From Symbiodinium natans (Eukaryota; Sar; Dinophyceae; Suessiales; Symbiodiniaceae), in NCBI GenBank assembly GCA_905221605.1, contig CAJNDS010002499.1:150001-214000 (forward strand): DNA of 64,000 nt, in the 5' to 3' direction. A program made the translations under genes and the position numbers. Positions 51,001-61,250 of this stretch are shown here, piece by piece. The notes under the pieces are model-generated. The model saw only the letters and a list, made by a program, of their open reading frames with translations, was not told the origin of the DNA and did not search any database. Numbering within the stretch: the first letter of the stretch is position 1; the number at the start of each line of letters is the position of its first letter.

Positions 51001-51555
51001 CCTTTCCCCATTTGGGGCTCGAAAACTGCGGGACGGCTCACGCCCGGACAGGTCTTTAAATGACCGGGGCCCCTGGCTGCAAGAACCTGTAGGACACTTT
51101 CCCGCTACATTTGCCCGCGCCTAGCCCGGTGGCACGATGCTCTTGCTGTCTTTGGATGCACAGTCGAATTATCTTCGCAGTCTTCTCTCGAGAAATGGGG
51201 TGGTGGCAGCTTCAACAAGATGTGAAGCCCTGCTTAGGACGGGTTGAGCGCTTGAGCAGAAGGCTACAGTAGACTGCAGGCTGCTAGCCGAAAATGCAAA
51301 CCCCTCTACGACTCTGCGAGTAGCAAGCCCAGCTCACACCAAGCAGCTGATCTGTGCCAGCCTTCAAAGGTTCAGCGCACGTGCTGCCGAAACACCAGGA
51401 AACCCTCGCAACCATGAACAGGCGTTGAAGAACCATAAGTTTTGGGCTTTTAAAGTTAAAGGACCCTAAGCTCTTTACAGTTGCACCTTGTTTTCGTAAG
51501 CTTTGTATTTCAGACTCTTGGCCTTTCCAAAAGCATCCGCAACTCGAAGCAGCAC

Positions 51556-54500
51556 CCCGCTGACTCGCACGAAGCCACCGCGGAGGCCAGTGTGATCGCG
51601 TTCCTTGCGAGGCCCCAGGGACTGCCCTCCCCCGCCCCTGCCCCGCCCCAGTTCTCAACTCACAACACACACAACACACCCACACACCCACACACCCACA
51701 CACCCACACACCCACACACAAAGAGTGCTGTGCACCCATTTCATTTGTTATTTTCGGTGAAGGCGAAGAAAAGGAGCGCCTCAAGAACACAACAGGTGCA
51801 CAGCTGAAAGGGCCTTTCCCCTCTTAGCAAATCCCCTACGCTATTCCACATGTTTGAATTAAATGCTATAAGAAACGCAGAACATGGAAAGGGGCTCTTT
51901 TCTCCCCCTTTTTTCCACAGGTTGGCTCAGACCCAAGTCTCGGCTCCAGGGCGCTCGCGGCCATGTCTGCGCACAAGTGCAGCACCCGCCGCCACTCACC
52001 CGCCTCTGAGAGGAAGGAGGAAGCGAGGAAGGGAGGAAGAGAGGGATTTGTGTTTATGGTTTCTTTCTTCTCACAGACTCTCACAGACCCCCCCCCCCCC
52101 CCCCCCCCGCAAATTGAAACATACTAAAACCGCGCTCTCAAAGCCCCTCAAGCCGCAGCCCTCACATCCCTGAGAAGCGCACCCACAAATCGTCACACCC
52201 TGATCTGGGACCTGTTGGCAGGCGCCAAGAGCAGCAGAGAAGGCTGCTACGCCAGGCTCGAGGCTCTCCCTCCTTCGGCACTGGGCATTTGAAGATGTAA
52301 ATGCACTTCGGTTGGGAAGCATGCGGGAAGCTTATGCCAAAGCAGAACTATCAGAACGTGGGAGGATAGGAAGATAGTCATGTCAGCACCCGAGCACAGG
52401 CAGCTTGAGAAGCCCGTGCGATGCGTGCCTTGATCTGTTCAGGAGGTGGAGGGCGCCAGGCCACTGAGAGGCCTTCCTCGGGCTCTTGCAAGCAGCCCCC
52501 CAAGCAACCACTCCCTGTCATTCATGAGGCCATTGCAGAACTTGCTGTGCTTTGGTCCAATCTAGGCCATCTAGGCACCAAAATCATCAACCATGAGGTA
52601 TACACCCAAGAACCCACACAAATACCCAAGCAATTTGGAGAATTTAGGAAGGTCACGGAATGTCACAGACATCAAGCCGACAGATGATTGCAAGCAAGGT
52701 GCCCGCATGCGCTGATGGCTGCGCTTCTGAGTCCAGAGTTTGACAGTTAAGGGTTTGCATCAATTCTTGGTTTGGGCTCGGTGCTGTTCGGTGCGAAAGT
52801 GTAAAATCAAGAAGCTGCACACATTACATCAGCGACTGTGGATTCACGGGAAGCGGTGTCAGGCGCTGTGAGCCCTACATCAAACCCAGCTGAAGCCCTC
52901 ACCTCAAGCCTAGTTTGGTAAGCTCTGAAGGCCCAGAAAAGCCCCCTGATCCAAATAGAGTCCGGAGCACAAGGTGATCAGGTTCACCCGCAGTCCCTGG
53001 TGCTCCGCTGTTGCCAGCAACTGCAGGGCCCGCCGCCACTCCGCTGCCTGGCACGGTCGACTTCGTGCCCGTTCCAGCTCGCACATCTGGCGAGGCCTCT
53101 TTAGGTCAAGTAGAGTCTTAGCATGCTTCATCCCGGGCCAAACGTAACATACAGATATTCTTAGATCCTTGCAGCAATCCCGAAAACTGTCGAGACGGTG
53201 CCTGCTCGCACGCGCTGATGGCCGCGCTGCAACTTGTCACGTCTGCCTGTAGCCGCCAGGCCTCCAAAGGGTGACATGAAGGCGAGCACCGCCAGGCGCC
53301 CTAGCTTCAACCCACGCTGGCTCAATCAATAGCCACCTCTCAAAATACCCAAATCACCAACGCTCAGCGAAGATTTCTTGAAGTTTCTGAGCTTGCGCTG
53401 GGCCGACAGGAGGCCTCCAGGTCAGCCAACAGCCTCAAGGCTTCTTCCCACCGCACGGCCTTCTCCTGAGAATCGCGGGGTTCGAAGTTTTCAGGATCCT
53501 CACGTTTAGTTTTAAAACTGTTAAACGCAAGCTCCTCCAAACAACAAGTGTCAGGGCTGAGGGAGCATGAGGTTTACAATTTTATGGAACACTTAAGACT
53601 GCACCAAACAACCTCGTCGGACCCTTACTTTCACCCTTACAGTTGCCAGCGGACAAAGGACATGATCGGAAATGCCTGTGGTGCACTGGCCTCGGGTACT
53701 GTACTCCTGGGTTAGAGAGATGATGTACTGGCACTGCCATTCTGTCATCCGCCGCGACTACAGGAATACGTGCGCACGATTCAACGGACTTAGATTCGAC
53801 AGAGGCTGCAGCTGCTAACCGCTTGTTACCAGCGGCCAGCCCCAACGGAAATGCATGAGGTACAACATGGGAGTAGTCGATATACCACGGTCTCGGTGCA
53901 AATGCGAATTACAGCTCGTTTTGGATTTTGAGCAAGTTATGCATAAACCAAAATGGCCCAGAGAACCCGACCCCAGACCCCAGTTCACCTAGTTCACGTG
54001 AGGGTCGCATGCGCTGATCCCGGCGCTCAGCACCACGATGTTGAGGCGCAGTTGGCAGGCCCGGGCTGAGGCCAAAAGCGCCAGGGCTTGATCCCACTGG
54101 CTGGCCTCCGATTTGGGTTTGGGTTCCTTGCTTTGGGGCTTCTTTGGGCATTGAAAGGTAAGGCTTGGGGTGCAGGGCATGCGCACGTCATGCGTCGAAA
54201 CCCACGAGAAGGTGGCATTTTTGAGGGGAAGCCAAAACAGGTACAAGCCAAGAAGCCAAAACCCTGAACCGCCCTCTGAGCCGCTGAAAGCCAATACCAA
54301 AGAAGGGCCCGCACAAGCATGACGAACCCCCAATGAAGCTAAAAATCCCCTCTGTAGGCCTTTAGTAACACCAAAGAAAGGCACACTAAGCATGACAACC
54401 CCCCCCCAAAAGCCACCTTGACGCCAAGCAAGCCCTTCTGTTAGCCTTCTCGCACGCGCTGACCGCGGCCCCGCAAGTCACCACATCTATGGCCAGCTGC

Positions 54501-57500
54501 TGCTGTTCTGCCCCGGCCACCAGCAGGAGCGCCTGACAAGCTTCCACAAGTTTACTCGGTGCCCAGGGCTTTTAAGCTCGCAGCGTGCGCTCTTGGTACT
54601 GTGTTTTTGGTTCCACACAACCACAAAGCAGTTCATGCACGAAGCAACAAATTCCTGAACAGCGCGATGAAGAAACATGGAAAAGCTGTAGCAGGACGTA
54701 GAACAAAAGAGAGCGGCGCATGTTGCCGAAATAACCAGTTCCCACTGCTCAGCTCCCACAACTACTGCCGGCCTCCTGCCATTGCTCCCCTCGGCCGCAT
54801 GCGCTGATAGCAGCGTTCCTGGGCTGGCCCCCTGTTCAAAAGGGCCCTGGCTCTGGGAGTGCAGATTGACAGGGCTTGAGGTGCCAAGGTTGGTGAGGTC
54901 CGAAAACTCTGTCGGATGCACACGGAGAAAGTGAGGGAAAATCTCATCTTTGGGCGCGAAGAAATCAACGTCCTGCCTCCTGAAAGAGACTTGTTGACCG
55001 TTCGGTGATCATGAAGTTCCTACAGCAGACTCCGAGAACCGGAACCTCGTTCCATGCCGTGGCTCACAGCAATAATGCTCCGTGGAAGGCGCCGAGTGCC
55101 CATCTCACCCAGAAGCTGCAGGGCCACCGAGGCCTCGCAACGATCTTCGGGGTTTGGGTTCTTGCGGTGTTTCCATGCCTAGGGCTTCCAGGGGCTTAGG
55201 AGGAGGTCAAGCCATATCACTCTGCCTTACCGCGTCCCCTCTCACCAAAGGCCTCCTCCCCCTCGAGGGGTTTCAAGGGTCCATGCTGCATCTGATCCAT
55301 GCTCCGTGCCGCTCAGCGCCGCTGAGAAGCAATGGCGTCCGGGAGAACCGAAAAAGAGCCGCGCTCAGTGCAGTGCAGGGCACGTTTGAAGACGAGGGCA
55401 AGGGTCCAACACCCCGAGGCAATGGCCCCATAATGGCACCCCCTAGGGCAGTGGGGGCCAAGCGTCCAACCCTCGAGGCAAAACAGGGCGCAGCACAGCT
55501 GGGCATGGCAGTGGGCGGTGGGGCACAAACGTCTGCAATACCCAGACGGTCCACTGGACAGAAGGGGCGCAAAGGCTGGGCTGTCAGTTGCAGAGGTTTC
55601 GACCAGAAAACGCGCAAGCGCGACGAGAAAGCAGGCATGTAAGGCCTGGAAAGCAGGAGCTGTACTGCAGTCGCAAAGCAATGAAGGCAGCAGGGCCGTG
55701 GCGGCAAAGAAGCGGCAGCCGGCAGAAGAGCCCAGAACACAAGAAGCTGCCCCCAACGCCGTGAATGTCAAAAGCCAAGCCTATGTGGGGGGGGATGTGA
55801 GCCATGGCAGCAAACAAAGAACAAATGCGAAGGTGGCAACGCCACACAACCAAAGAGCAGACAAATTCGAGACTGCCACGGGCAACCGATGTAAAACCAC
55901 CGAGAGCCCAAACCCAGAAGCCCAGCAGCCTGCATATGCCGACCCACCACTAAGACTGCTCAAACCCCCCTCACCCCGGTGCCTGTCCGTCACAAGCGCT
56001 GAGGGCAGAGACGTAGGAGATCACGTCAGGCTGCAAGCCCCTGGTCTCGACCTGGTTCAGGGCCGGACTGTTTCTCGGGCTCTAGATTGGGGCAGGAAGA
56101 AGCATCCTACGATAAGGCTCCCTGAGGTGGCAAAGGGGGCCCAGGTGCGGGCGACAATTGGCCGCACACAGATACTTTGGATTTGAGTTGAGGAGCTGTG
56201 AAGAGGTTTGAGGCATGTTCTAGGTGCATTGGCTTCGTGAGTCAGCGGGCTTTGCTGGAACCCCAAGCTGCCTGCCGCAGGAGCTCCAGAGCAAGGCGCC
56301 AGTGCCCACCTTGCTCCTTGGGACAAAACAGGACAAAACGGGAAGTGGTAAGCTCACCACACCCTCATCGCGGATAAGGATCGTCTACCTCAAGAAGGAC
56401 AAACCGAACTTGTCTCAACTCTTGCATCGCAAGAATGCTGTCAAAGACAGCGCGAGCTGATTCAGAGTGAGCAAAAATGGAAGATGAACCAATTACGAGC
56501 ATAATTATACGAAGTGCACAAGTTCCGTGGGTTCAGAAACCTCCGGGCCCCCGGAAATTTCGAGCGGGAAGGCATGCTACATGAGGTAGGCCTACCCCTT
56601 GTACCCATAGGCATGAGAGGTGCCAACTGCTGGCATGCGGCTGTTTTGGGGTTCTAGACCTACAAGCAGAAGCTCAAAAAAAAAAGGAGCCCGAGATTCG
56701 AGGGCGCGGAGCGCGAGGTTGTACGTGAAGACATCGGGCTTCAACTGCTTGGCCTGGGCCGCTCTTCAGAGCGAAGGTGAGTTCCAGGGAGCTGAGCATG
56801 GCTCTCCAGACTTGGATCCTAAGAATTTTAGGGGGGGGTCGCGGGCTCCAGAGCTGAAGCACAAGCTCCCTGAGAAGTGTAAGGAACATGGGTGTGTGTA
56901 GGGGTGTGTAGCTTCGCCAAGTTTACGCACCCTCGGAACCTACCCAAGTCTCCGGACTTCAAGATTGTGCAGTCCGGAAGTCAGGATGATACTCCCAACA
57001 GGTATGCAAGCACTTCTTGCGAATAAATGTGGGCCAAATCGAAGTCGGGGAGAGGATTTGGGTCGCTGGAAGGCCCCTCCCCCCTGCCTCGAGCGTCTCA
57101 AGCAAGCCACAGCTTAGCAGCCACAGGCCAGGCCCCTGGCCTCGCTGAACTGCCCCTAAAAAAAAGAGGACAATTCTGAAGTTTACCGGGCTTTCCCCTG
57201 TTGCAGCCTTTGATGTAAGCTGACATGGCAGAAGCCCTGGGCTGAAAAAGAGGTGATCTTTCGGCCCAAAACCCAACCAATCCTCGATGCAAGAGTTGCA
57301 ACATTCTCCAGCACCTTCAATATCTTCAATCAGGCTCAGTGGCAGGCACAGATACCCGTGTTGAATGTCACGATGTCAGGAGCTAGAGATGTGGCTTCGG
57401 TCTCCTGTCGGAGTCCAGCAGAACTCTTTCAAGGGCTTGGGATTCTGGCTTTTTGCTGTGGGTGTTGCTGAAGCTTCTTCCAGGGCTGGTGAGGGAGGAG

Positions 57501-60257
57501 CGGGGTCAGAGGTGTAGGCCGGTCCACTTTTCTGGGGTCGGGTGAGTCTGATGATGAAGGTTCGTGAGTAGCTGAGTAGATGTGAGTGGCACTTTGACAG
57601 CGGCTTCCTGCACCATGCGAAGAGCCAAGTCCCAGCGCTGAGCAGCTCCGCAGGCACTGATGGCAGCATTGTACCTGCGACACAAAAAGACCCACCATGC
57701 CCAGCTTGAGTGATGCTGAGCGGTTGCGGCAAGTCAAAGTTTAAGGAGTGTATCTGGGTTTTGGCATGTTTTGACGCTGGCTGTCGTCTTGAGCACACCA
57801 CAAACCTGGAGAGAACCGGGCCCAATTCTAATTTAATCGGAGCACACGAAGATGTCCAGCTGAAGCGCATGCCTCGAGACCTCGGGTTTGGGGGACAGCT
57901 CAGATGGACCCAGGGATTTAGGATTTAGGGTTCAGGGTTCAGGGTTTCGGGTAGCTAAGAGAACGGAATGCTCACAAAAAGGCAGCTTCTCCCGCGCCTC
58001 CTTGAGCAAGGCAAGGGCCGGTCCCCAGCCGGAAGGTGACTGGCAAGAGGAGATGGCCGAGGTGTAGGTGACCAGGTCCTGGGAGCTGGGGCGCATTTGG
58101 GGGGGTGTCATAAAGGGGTCTCACGAAGCCTTCGAGTGACTTTAGGGTTTTTGCACTGCCAGCATCCAACGAAGTGTCTTGGCAATGGCTCTGGGAGTTT
58201 ACAATTTGAGGTTTGGAACATGCCCACCCCCTCCGTTGAAGAAGAGGCCCGGAGCCCGTTGCCGTAATGGCTGAGCATTTTTGCAAGAAATGGCAATCAG
58301 AAATCCTCAGTGTGAGAAATCTCCGGGAGGTGGGCACGTACGCGCATCCGACTCATACCGAGCAACACAACTGTAAGTCAATTTGCGCCGCGTTGAGCCT
58401 TGCTCGCAAAACCTTGTGTATTCAGAATAGATGTAAGTATTTAAGGAGTCATACTGTTGCATAAGCAGCATCAGAGTCTAACAAGCTTAAAACAGATTAT
58501 GACCCGAACAGGCGCAAGCGGCCGAAAGGGAACCAGGTTGCCGGCGCCCTCCTGTGTGCTACGCTACCCTGCGTTTGTAGTGCACAAGTCAACGTTGTGG
58601 CCACAGCTCCGGACGACCCGGGCGCCTTTATAGCCTGCCCCAAGGGCAGCTCCTCCTCAGGTCCTATAAGGCCATCCCCACCACCTGAAGCCAAGCCTCC
58701 CGACACCCTCAGCCCTAAGCTGCCTAAGCTGGACTAGCTGAGGTTGCTGCCGAGCCTCCGGCTGAAGCTGTTGGGACTCCATTTCCGCCTTGGGACGGTC
58801 TCAGCATCAGTCCAGTCCCTTCCATCCTAGACATGAGACGTTTCTTTCACCATGACCTGGAATCCAATCCAATATGATTTGGCTAGGTTTAGGAATTGTA
58901 TGTAGCCTGATATCACAAGCCGTCCGAGCAGCGATCAGTGCCACCGCCTGCCACCATATGTCCGCATCATTATCCAGACAAGTGCCTCGGTCATGTGGAG
59001 AAATCCCACACATCATGCATCCTGTCGTTGAGTTTTCATCGAAGCACCGGTAAGCAACGCAGGCAGCTAGGTGCCATCAAAGGGTTTCCAACGTTGTTTT
59101 GGCTAAGCTTCAGCACAGCGCTGCAATGGGAGCATGTCTTCGCAATCCACATCTGACAAAACCGACAAAACCTTGAATAAACTGGCAGCCAGAACCAGGA
59201 AGACCCCGCGCTACCCTGGCTGGGTTTTGGCAGCATCTCGTTCGCCATCATGGAAAGTAGCGGGAAATATGCCCCATGTGAGTTTGGAGCGTTTGGGAAG
59301 AACTCCGGGGCTGATGACGAACATATCTGGTACGAGTATTTCGGGCTTCCAATTAGTGCTGCTTCTTGTCTTCTGCGAGAACTCGAACTCGTGAACACAC
59401 ACATACACACACTCTAAATTGCCTTTGTGTTGGACTTCGCTCCTCGACAAAACAGACGCAGCCGCAAGTTATTTGAAAACCTATTGAAAACGCCTTTTTA
59501 CATACCTTTACGGTGCTTGCCTGCATTGACTAGCAGCTTGCGTGCGCAAGTTGCAACTCGAAGAACAACGAAACACTGAGTTTTCTATGGCTCCCAAGTT
59601 TTGGGCCTTCGGATGTTGGGCCGTGGTGGGGTTAGGCTTGGGTCTTCTCGCAGCCGAGGCACTGATGGCGGCGTTGTAGGTGACAGTTTCCGGTATAATT
59701 TGCTTCTCACCCAGCTCATGTAGTAGAACCACGGCCGTTCGCCATTGACCCTTCTGCTTGCAGGCACTGATGGCCACGTTGTACGTTCTGAGGTTGGGAT
59801 ACATCCGTTCTTCTTCAATAGCTGCAATGAGGAGGCAAGCCTCCTGCCAGCGCCCTGCCTTCTTGCAGGCACTGATTGCAGAGTTGTAGAAAATCACGTC
59901 GGCTTGCAGGGATTCAGTTGTTGCGCGGCTGAGTAGCTGCAATGCATGCTCCCACCTTCCACCGCGTTCACATGCTCTGACTGCAGTGCTGAGGGCCACG
60001 GCGTCGAGGCGCAGATGCCTCTCTGCTGCGTCCGCCAGAACAGCCAGTGCCACCAACCATTGAGCTGCCCGCTTGCATACATCCAGGAGAGCGTTGTGCA
60101 CTCTCAGACTCGGCTGGAACTCCTGGAGGGGCATTTCTGCAAGGAATGCGAGCGCTTGCCGCCACTTCGCCGTGCGTCCGCAGGATTGGATGGCATTCTT
60201 GTACGCGTTGACACTGAGCTGGGCACCTCCCGCCCTGCAACCTTTGCACTCCAGCAT
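51556..60257 (-). CDS. Pentatricopeptide-repeat (PPR) protein, at least 20 exons
   Basis: PPR proteins bind RNA, usually in organelles, one 35-residue helical hairpin per base. Exons, in reading order: 60257-59663, 58985-58907, 58085-57998, 57880-57846, 57674-57593, 56747-56700, 56316-56272, 56051-55988, 55144-55066, 54818-54773, 54532-54446, 54105-54007, 53465-53415, 53261-53202, 53047-52971, 52726-52703, 52476-52429, 52272-52212, 52003-51942, 51603-51556. Joined, they keep one frame for about 590 codons and about 17 repeats of the pattern W-x2-AL-x-LL-x7-L-x-P-D-VVTYNAAISACEK. Examples are 'DVVTCGAAVSACEK', 'ASQWDQALALLASAR' and 'AAEWRRALQLLATAEHQGL'. Donors are GC, GA or GT; acceptors AG. 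The 60257 ATG is the first in frame; the open frame extends to 60383 without one, so an upstream exon may exist. The 3' end beyond 51556 (GG|GTGCTG donor) was not found. Junctions after exons 1, 2 and 8 are the least certain. Confidence 0.82.
51663..51720. repeat. ACACACCC microsatellite
   Basis: About seven units of CACACACC and related, inside the region between PPR exon 20 and exon 19. Confidence 0.9.
52087..52109. repeat. Poly-C tract in a PPR intron
   Basis: Twenty-plus C on the plus strand (poly-G in the sense of the gene), in intron 18. Confidence 0.95.
55180..55985. other. Strand-asymmetric, stop-poor insert in PPR intron 8
   Basis: The plus strand is very poor in T and rich in A, G and C. 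All six frames have long open runs, including plus-strand frames at 55082-55642 and 55518-56186 of 186 and 222 codons, biased to Ala, Lys, Arg, Gln and Pro. The encoded sequences show no fold signature. I treat it as a compositionally unusual intron insert rather than a gene; a nested antisense gene is possible. Confidence 0.5.
57914..57951 (+). repeat. Interstitial telomeric array (degenerate)
   Basis: Five TTTAGGG-like units (ATTTAGG, TTCAGGG), in PPR intron 3. Confidence 0.85.
59663..60257 (-). CDS. PPR gene, first recognised exon (six repeats)
   Basis: Carries six PPR motifs without an intron: 'SVNAYKNAIQSCGRTAKW', 'SLRVHNALLDVCKRAAQW', 'DAVALSTAVRACERGGRW', 'DVIFYNSAISACKKAGRW', 'NLRTYNVAISACKQKGQW' and 'ETVTYNAAIS'. 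The repeat is cut at the last motif by a GTGCCT donor. The codons for the expected next residues (TGC GAG AAG) lie five bases after GCC in the unspliced DNA, but out of frame. The 5' part ('MLECKGCRAGG') may be presequence or misread intron. In contrast to the rest of the gene, this exon is intron-free. Confidence 0.85.
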
Positions 60258-60440: not shown

Positions 60441-60572
60441 CTCTTTCTCTCTCGCTCCCTCGCCCTCGCCCTCGCCCTCGCCCTCGCCCTCGCCCTCGCC
60501 CTCGCCCTCGCCCTCGCCCTCGCCCTCACCCTCACCCTCACTCTCACTCATTCTCTTTATCTCTCTCTCTGG
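60441..60572. repeat. CCCTCG hexanucleotide repeat flanked by CT repeat
   Basis: About 13 CCCTCG units, then CCCTCA, between two CTCTCT tracts, about 190 bp upstream of the first ATG of the PPR gene. Confidence 0.95.
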
Positions 60573-61250
60573 GGTGAAGCTGGAGTGTCTCCCTCCCTGG
60601 GAGGCCTTGGCGGTGATGCGGGAGCCGCGGGGGGCTAAACCAACGGCTGCATCCAGAGCCTGGCGTCCTGTTGTTTCAAGCGCACGACATATAAGATTGC
60701 TTTATACAGATGGCCGAAAGATTTCTGCTGGAGATTTCTTAAGGCTGCCAATTGAACGGCAGGGTTTTGAGAGATGCGGAGATTTCTGGCCACAACAAGT
60801 TTCAGGACTGGGATTGAGGGTGTGGCGACTGATGCTGCTTCTGCTTTCAGATGATTTCAGGCGCTTACCGCATAACCTTTCAGCCATATACGGCTTAGTA
60901 CAGAGAGCGACAGACAGCCGTGCATCTGGATCTTACGAAACATCTTCGTAACCCAGACACTGCCAAGCTCGGTTCAGGGCTTGGATTTCTGTTTGGACTC
61001 ATGCTTAGACCCATGCTTGGACCCTCGACCTGCACAACAGACCTGCACAACAAACGCCCCAGCAACTTCAGAGAATCCTGCACCAGGCCGGCCAACAAGT
61101 CGAACCTCAGTTCGCTCTGTCGGAGGCTCAGGAGATCTTAGGGGCTTAGGTTGCCAAGGTTTGTGGCGCTTTGGGGTTTGGAAGGACTTTGGTGGATGGT
61201 GTTGGGGCTATTGGGGCTCCTGGGTTCTGGAGATTTACAATGTGGAAACT

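Follow-up and report, generated by a model that had tools for sequence, protein, structure and literature searches.

The minus strand of a 64,000-nucleotide stretch of the Symbiodinium natans genome (the window; G000:C2187:150001-214000) carries a PPR gene in which most introns begin with GC or GA rather than GT. On the computational evidence presented here, this gene is real and of a known kind. In 64 introns from the window gene and a further 12 PPR loci of this genome, the start of the intron tends to copy the start of the following exon. The locus is probably an ordinary intron-rich dinoflagellate PPR gene, whose donors were inherited from the target duplications of intron insertion.

The gene was modelled by a spliced dynamic programme with a cyclic 35-position profile, built from 42 and later 160 PPR units of other loci in the same genome (759,417,921 bases in 2543 contigs) with the window gene excluded. 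Any dinucleotide was allowed as donor, AG was required at the intron end and stops were forbidden within exons. The minus strand between window positions 61000 and 51000 reached 329 nats, as compared with 0.2 for the plus strand, at most 3.5 for four scrambled profiles and at most 1.5 for both strands of five other 10-kb windows, in agreement with the PPR exon chain read by the initial annotation. The part downstream of 59640 alone scored 190 nats, whereas neither its plus strand nor any of four scrambled profiles exceeded 1.0. The PPR HMM search proposed in that annotation was likewise positive: the joined 619-aa protein, a composite of two spliced models, matches Pfam PPR_2 at 1e-52 and PPR_3 at 5e-46, its C-terminal 375 aa, starting at the end of exon 58078-57990, match PPR_2 at 2.8e-29, and the first long exon matches PPR_2 unspliced at 1.2e-18. 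Written out, the exons form 11 consecutive repeats of exactly 35 residues, spanning 20 introns and followed by an in-frame stop, a fit that arises partly by construction, as junctions were picked to suit the profile.

The gene extends from an in-frame ATG at 60257, a candidate start, to the TGA at 51512-51510 on the minus strand, with about 20 exons (Table 1). Its end had been placed at 51556, and the terminal exon runs on past this position to the stop; weak model exons downstream of 51510 were set aside because of that in-frame stop. The spliced models gave no confident placement for the half repeat between 59661 and 58788, and several acceptors shift by a few bases between models. The predicted protein comprises about 17–18 PPR repeats with a putative role in organellar RNA binding; the gene is presumably spliced and functional. 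Directly upstream of the gene start there is a tandem GAGGGC array (window 60460-60540, minus strand). Among the 13 longest open reading frames listed near the gene, 10 have no Pfam match at 1e-3, and no part of the window attained the threshold of any Rfam family.

Table 1. Exons of the PPR gene on the minus strand in window coordinates, with donors, first bases of the following exon and donor posteriors (EM where marked).
Exon	Position (strand)	Donor	Next exon starts	Posterior	Remarks
First long exon	59661..60257 (-)			0.48/0.27 (59663/59661)	ATG 60257, start candidate; four full and two partial PPR repeats; 3' end 59663 or 59661
AVALI	58933..58947 (-)			0.63 (58933)	tentative small exon; alternative start 58985
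AEMESQQLQP	58759..58788 (-)	GA	GA	0.94	dLL GA +2.1, GT -2.5
DLVTYTSAISSC...EAR	57990..58078 (-)	GA		0.80 vs 0.13	initial annotation: 57998, GC
HALQLDIF	57846..57872 (-)	GT	GT	0.86 (EM)	
YNAAISACGAAQRWDLALRMVQ	57608..57674 (-)	GA 57608 or GC 57605		0.41/0.39	
ETEATSLAPDIVTFNTGICA	57344..57404 (-)	GCCA	GCCA	0.70	
QGPGLWLLSCGLLETLE	57088..57140 (-)	GC or GA			
AKQLKPDVFTYNLALRAL	56700..56753 (-)	GA	GA	0.94 (EM)	alternative start 56763
EQGGHWRLALELLRQ	56272..56316 (-)	GC		0.92 (EM)	
VETRGLQPDVISYVSALSACD	55988..56051 (-)	GA		0.84	
RCEASVALQLLGEMGTRRLPRSIIA	55066..55144 (-)	GA	GA	0.93 (EM)	acceptor uncertain
NAAISACGRGEQWQE	54773..54818 (-)	GC	GC	0.96	
ALLLVAGAEQQQLAIDVVTCGAAVSACEK	54446..54532 (-)	GC	GC	0.95 (EM)	
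ASQWDQALALLASARACQLRLNIVVLSAGISAC	54007..54105 (-)	GA	GA	0.99 (EM)	flat-model start 54100
EKAVRWEEALRLLADLE	53415..53465 (-)	GCCT	GCCT	0.97 (EM)	repeat length 4
AWRLQADVTSCSAAISACEQ	53202..53261 (-)	GCA	GCA	0.97 (EM)	
AAEWRRALQLLATAEHQGLRVNLIT	52971..53047 (-)	GT		0.97 (EM)	
SAAISAC	52703..52726 (-)	GC	GA	1.0	dLL GT -8.9
KASQWPGALHLLNRSRHA	52420..52476 (-)	GC		0.76 vs 0.17	initial annotation: 52429
LEPGVAAFSAALGACQQ	52212..52263 (-)	GT		0.92 (EM)	acceptor 52263, 52265 or 52269
AGEWRRVLHLCADMAASALE	51942..52003 (-)	GA	GA	0.99 (EM)	
Terminal exon	51510..51603 (-)				read by translation; in-frame stop TGA 51512-51510

The donor grammar of the gene was examined by comparing likelihoods under different donor sets. 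With AG acceptors and the 42-unit profile, the marginal likelihood was 274.5 nats for GT only, 354.3 for any dinucleotide and 370.7 for GT/GC/GA. Decoy sets of three dinucleotides reached 334.7 (C-), 300.6 (T-) and 293.5 (A-); GT-only falls below all three, a deficit that stems partly from the lower flexibility of one dinucleotide against three. As sole donor under the 160-unit profile, GC ranks first (410.6), GA second (389.9) and CG third (386.7), and GT is tenth of the 16 dinucleotides (347.1, 63.5 nats under GC); GT/GC/GA jointly reach 443.2 and flat donors 421.4. Six rounds of donor EM from a flat start converged on weights of 0.384 for GC, 0.340 for GA, 0.131 for GT and 0.067 for CG, and the original statement that most donors are not GT is thereby upheld. 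In a one-by-one donor test of 25 introns, 20 (58759 to 51942) enter the tally, the five upstream ones (60317 to 58933) being uninformative. GT is the best of four donor classes at three of these 20 (57846, 52971 and 52212); at the remaining 17 it scores 0.6 to 8.9 nats worse than a flat donor. The best GT/GC/GA path over the same 20 joins uses GC nine times, GA eight times and GT three times, with the joins at 57608 and 57088 ambiguous between GA and GC. The initial annotation, which counted 19 joins, had about nine GC donors, four or five GA and five or six GT. Simulation of 160 GT introns produced 121 calls, of which 105 were GT and 16 were not, indicating that the GT shortage in the real gene, where the flat model calls GT at 2 of 19 introns, is not a failing of the method.

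On the acceptor side, 21 sites span 58788 to 51603, and in 18 of them the AG, which the model imposes, is followed by G; the initial annotation counted 16 such acceptors. With GT/GC/GA donors, AG acceptors are favoured over free acceptors by 27 nats (370.7 vs 343.5), and the donors scatter once the acceptors are also freed. The 35-residue period works as a test of splice grammar and argues strongly against an all-GT gene. The stronger proposal that the period independently proves each junction goes too far: the period provides a statistical donor signal, but it needs the assumption of AG acceptors and does not fix single donors. Proof by the period alone was rejected, as the fully free model, with no donor or acceptor assumption, leaves the donors scattered. 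At the level of single junctions, 11 of 14 exon ends named earlier are supported with an EM posterior of at least 0.86 (56272, 54446, 53415 and 53202; 56700, 55066, 54007 and 51942; 57846, 52971 and 52212), and under a flat donor prior the posteriors of the same 11 range from 0.33 to 0.98. The other three ends, 57998, 52429 and 57593, have EM posteriors of 0.15, 0.28 and 0.00, and better positions are 57990, 52420 and 57608 or 57605, respectively.

A direct repeat between donor and next exon emerges from the 64 introns, a set limited to introns shorter than 1500 bases whose flanking exons each exceeded 8 nats; the same filter kept 42 of 66 in an earlier set, and among the 12 other loci, L001 and L006 lie next to each other on a single contig. 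The coupling is tightest for GA. In the donor table, which holds the 47 of 64 introns with GT, GC or GA under the flat model (17 other donors left out), 15 of 16 GA donors precede an exon starting with GA, and conversely a GA donor stands before 15 of 16 GA exons (Fisher 3.3e-10). The relation holds in the 12 other loci (9 of 9, p 3.6e-8) and in the window gene (6 of 7, p 0.009), where the sole exception, 55988, has an uncertain acceptor. By comparison, exons starting with GT follow GC (10) or GT (5), those starting with GC follow GC (9) or GT (2), and no GG donor was called among the 64 flat-model introns. Accordingly, the +2 bases of donor and exon belong to the same purine or pyrimidine class in 41 of 42 flat-model introns, a count restricted to G[TCA] donors before exons starting with G (17 of the 64 introns with other donors and five with non-G exons left out), and in 47 of 50 under the GT/GC/GA model. 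Copies of four full nucleotides also occur, namely GATG, GAAT, GATC (locus L072) and GCAC (locus L070).

Position-wise matching between the two junctions shows the same repeat. In 42 introns of other genes, positions +1 to +3 downstream of the junction match in 61 of 126 comparisons against 32.8 expected, and the upstream positions -4 and -3 show no excess (17 of 84, 20.3 expected). Over all introns, 4-nt matches amount to 139 of 256 against 89.4 by random pairing. The effect is weak in the window gene alone, with 37 of 76 filtered 4-nt matches against 30.9 (p 0.07, flat model) or 37 of 68 against 30.7 (p 0.04, GT/GC/GA donors). The 4-nt count is biased upward in simulations with independent donors (214 vs 175.5) and is unbiased in a GT-only simulation (163 vs 164.6); because of this bias, weight is placed on the GA/GA table. 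GA/GA coupling is absent when independent donors are simulated on window-gene exons (9 of 31 GA donors, p 0.98) and strong when 4-bp duplications are simulated (30 of 32). The rule was recognized post hoc, in the same genes before tabulation and with about three of the 64 introns new, so that its p-values are descriptive. No statement of a GA-donor/GA-exon rule was found in the passages of the dinoflagellate-intron literature consulted, whose coverage is partial. It is conceivable, though we consider it rather unlikely, that GA does not form a donor class of its own in this lineage and occurs only within direct repeats with a GA-starting exon.

The pattern fits what old introner-type insertions would leave, and the donor–exon repeat likely gives the origin of the non-GT donors. 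In the model we favour, the spliceosome would remove at least 20 AG-ending introns with GC, GA or GT donors, and each intron would have arisen from an inserted element that itself supplied the 3' AG and produced a second copy of a short GNNN target. The leading copy would have turned into the donor, and the trailing one would have come to open the next exon; GT and GC copies would then have drifted by transitions, with GA copies remaining matched to GA exons. What the analysis shows directly is the chain of exons, the predominance of non-GT donors and the donor–exon repeat; element insertion is our interpretation of the repeat. A crude ungapped comparison of 10-nt intron ends revealed no clear terminal inverted repeats in the 64 introns (2.36-3.41 matches for an intron's own ends vs 2.49-3.20 for random pairing, own ends being slightly higher at 5 of 7 offsets). 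A DNA search with the window gene, which skips very common words and scores best candidates only, matched only simple repeats elsewhere in the genome. These searches thus reveal no family of elements, and under the insertion model the introns would need to be old. The simple repeats lie in two introns (window 57912-57952 and 51658-51725, CCCTGAACCCTAAATCC-like and GTGTGGG-like) and are the only parts of the gene region with copies listed elsewhere.

A different reading of the same repeats is that GA is no donor, the cut being made in another register of the repeat (following GA or GANN on both sides, for instance), such that GA-AG would be an alignment convention. We regard this as unlikely, although it fares best among the alternatives. 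It accommodates the fact that 15 of 16 GA donors share at least GA with the next exon as a direct repeat, within which all registers yield the same mRNA, as well as the properties of U1. One U1 copy was read (L074, G000:C479:105100-105310; 16 U1 matches are listed in the genome, 11 above the cut-off), and it has the usual 5' end ACUUACCUG; complementarity to U1 at 27 inferred donors is barely above background (3.48 vs 2.97 of 9). A U1 altered to read GC or GA was considered, but the one copy read has the canonical 5' end, and given this copy and the weak donor pairing, neither a changed U1 nor strong U1 pairing explains the donors. On the other hand, a shifted register loses the AG acceptor, which the model favours by the likelihoods given above, and the GA donor at 55988 has no GA exon, albeit with its acceptor uncertain. 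The transcript alignment proposed in the initial annotation would confirm the exon joins and be partly blind to the cut before GA, since nearly all GA donors belong to a repeat shared with the following exon and several cut registers produce the same mRNA.

Two side observations concern the U1 locus. The stretch directly upstream of the U1 copy read includes CAGGTAAGT, which is exactly complementary to the U1 5' end, and on contig C479, U1 matches alternate with spliced-leader copies at a spacing of about 3.8 kb. The 21-nt dinoflagellate spliced leader has 205 exact copies in the genome, and the reversed control has none, which marks the genome as that of a dinoflagellate.

Tandem duplication of exon segments containing AGGN, instead of element insertion, would also yield GN...AG|GN direct repeats, and several GC donors of the window gene have AG just before them. 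In the unfiltered window gene, the flat model gives more matches than expected at the upstream positions -4 and -3, namely 21 of 50 vs 14.7 (p 0.03; with GT/GC/GA donors 21 of 54 vs 17.6, p 0.18), which runs contrary to target duplication, as the latter does not predict it. However, tandem duplication predicts upstream matches in general, and the other genes show none in excess at these positions, making this origin improbable.

The possibility that the locus is a decaying pseudogene appears slightly less probable still. The half repeat between 59661 and 58788 that could not be placed would suit it, as would the end of the first long exon (window 59650-59665, minus strand), where GCCTCGGCTGCGAGAAG resembles the codons of SACEK interrupted by five bases; this stretch may be an exon end, a variant or damage. 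Against decay, about 20 exons keep the frame, the 35-residue period and a final in-frame stop, in a model that forbids stops within exons. Lastly, that the donors are GT everywhere and that both the earlier reader and the protein-guided model misplaced the junctions is highly improbable: donor positions are not exactly fixed unless AG is assumed, 16 of the 121 calls in the GT simulation fell on other dinucleotides and the GT-only deficit partly reflects lower flexibility, but the tenth rank of GT, its disfavour at 17 of 20 introns and 2 of 19 GT calls against 105 of 121 in simulation all oppose it.

Our comparison with known systems places the window gene well within its family. According to the portions of the published reports available, GC is about as frequent as GT in Symbiodinium minutum, where GA occurs too and AG is often followed by G (PMC4083563); the predominant donors of S. 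microadriaticum are GC, GT and GA, with 21.8 exons per gene and a mean exon of 109.5 bp (PMC5177918); and GC/GA-AG introns account for 25-74% across Symbiodiniaceae (review, PMC11453091). The window gene shares with these introns the donors, the AG-then-G acceptors, about 20 exons per gene and exons near 100 bp, and as far as those portions go, nothing essential differs, GA being here about as frequent as GC and GT being few. Mostly non-GT donors in this gene are thus ordinary for Symbiodiniaceae. The 12 other PPR loci (45 introns, flat model) have 14 GC, 9 GT, 9 GA and 13 other donors, indicating that the window gene is like its relatives. It stands as the useful test case it was first proposed to be, but its mostly non-GT donors do not single it out.

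The closest parallel for the direct repeat is found in the introners of S. microadriaticum, which, in the part of the report available, have 4-bp target-site duplications from which the 5' splice site is drawn (Gozashti et al., PMC9860276). There, likewise, a short repeat joins the donor to the start of the next exon and the intron provides the 3' AG; the difference is that the DNA search gave no copy family for the introns of the window gene and the crude end comparison showed no clear inverted repeats in the 64 introns. Three introns of Symbiodinium peridinin-chlorophyll protein genes have the borders MWG|gy ... sag|GY (PMC4201569), that is, a GY donor before a GY exon, matching the GT/GC class here; the available text covers these three only, with no GA class among them. 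In Amoebophrya, non-canonical introns and introners have 3-5 nt direct repeats spanning their exon/intron borders (PMC7789003), but, as far as the accessible passages describe them, their splice dinucleotides have no clear signature and inverted repeats are present, whereas the donors here are mainly G[TCA], with no GG called among the 64 flat-model introns. At the protein level, the window gene has the same repeat sequence and period as the ISACEKGGQW-type PPR proteins of this genome (PF13041, PF13812, PF01535), a large family. Most listed matches to this family lie in long open frames, whereas the window member is spread over about 20 exons, and L070 and L072 are likewise partly split. Many such matches in long open frames are clustered on single contigs, for example C613, C1535 and C2205.

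The periodicity of a protein repeat makes donor grammar learnable from one genome without transcripts, and this gene is a useful worked case. The GA/GA rule also carries a warning, namely that RNA-seq is unable to confirm GA donors; if the rule is general, the true cut in GA introns would not be decidable from any transcript data. The candidate rule, that a GA donor implies a GA exon, would explain the origin of non-GT donors: if it is general, GC and GA donors would be fossils of target-site duplications, and the splicing machinery would hardly read the +2 base.
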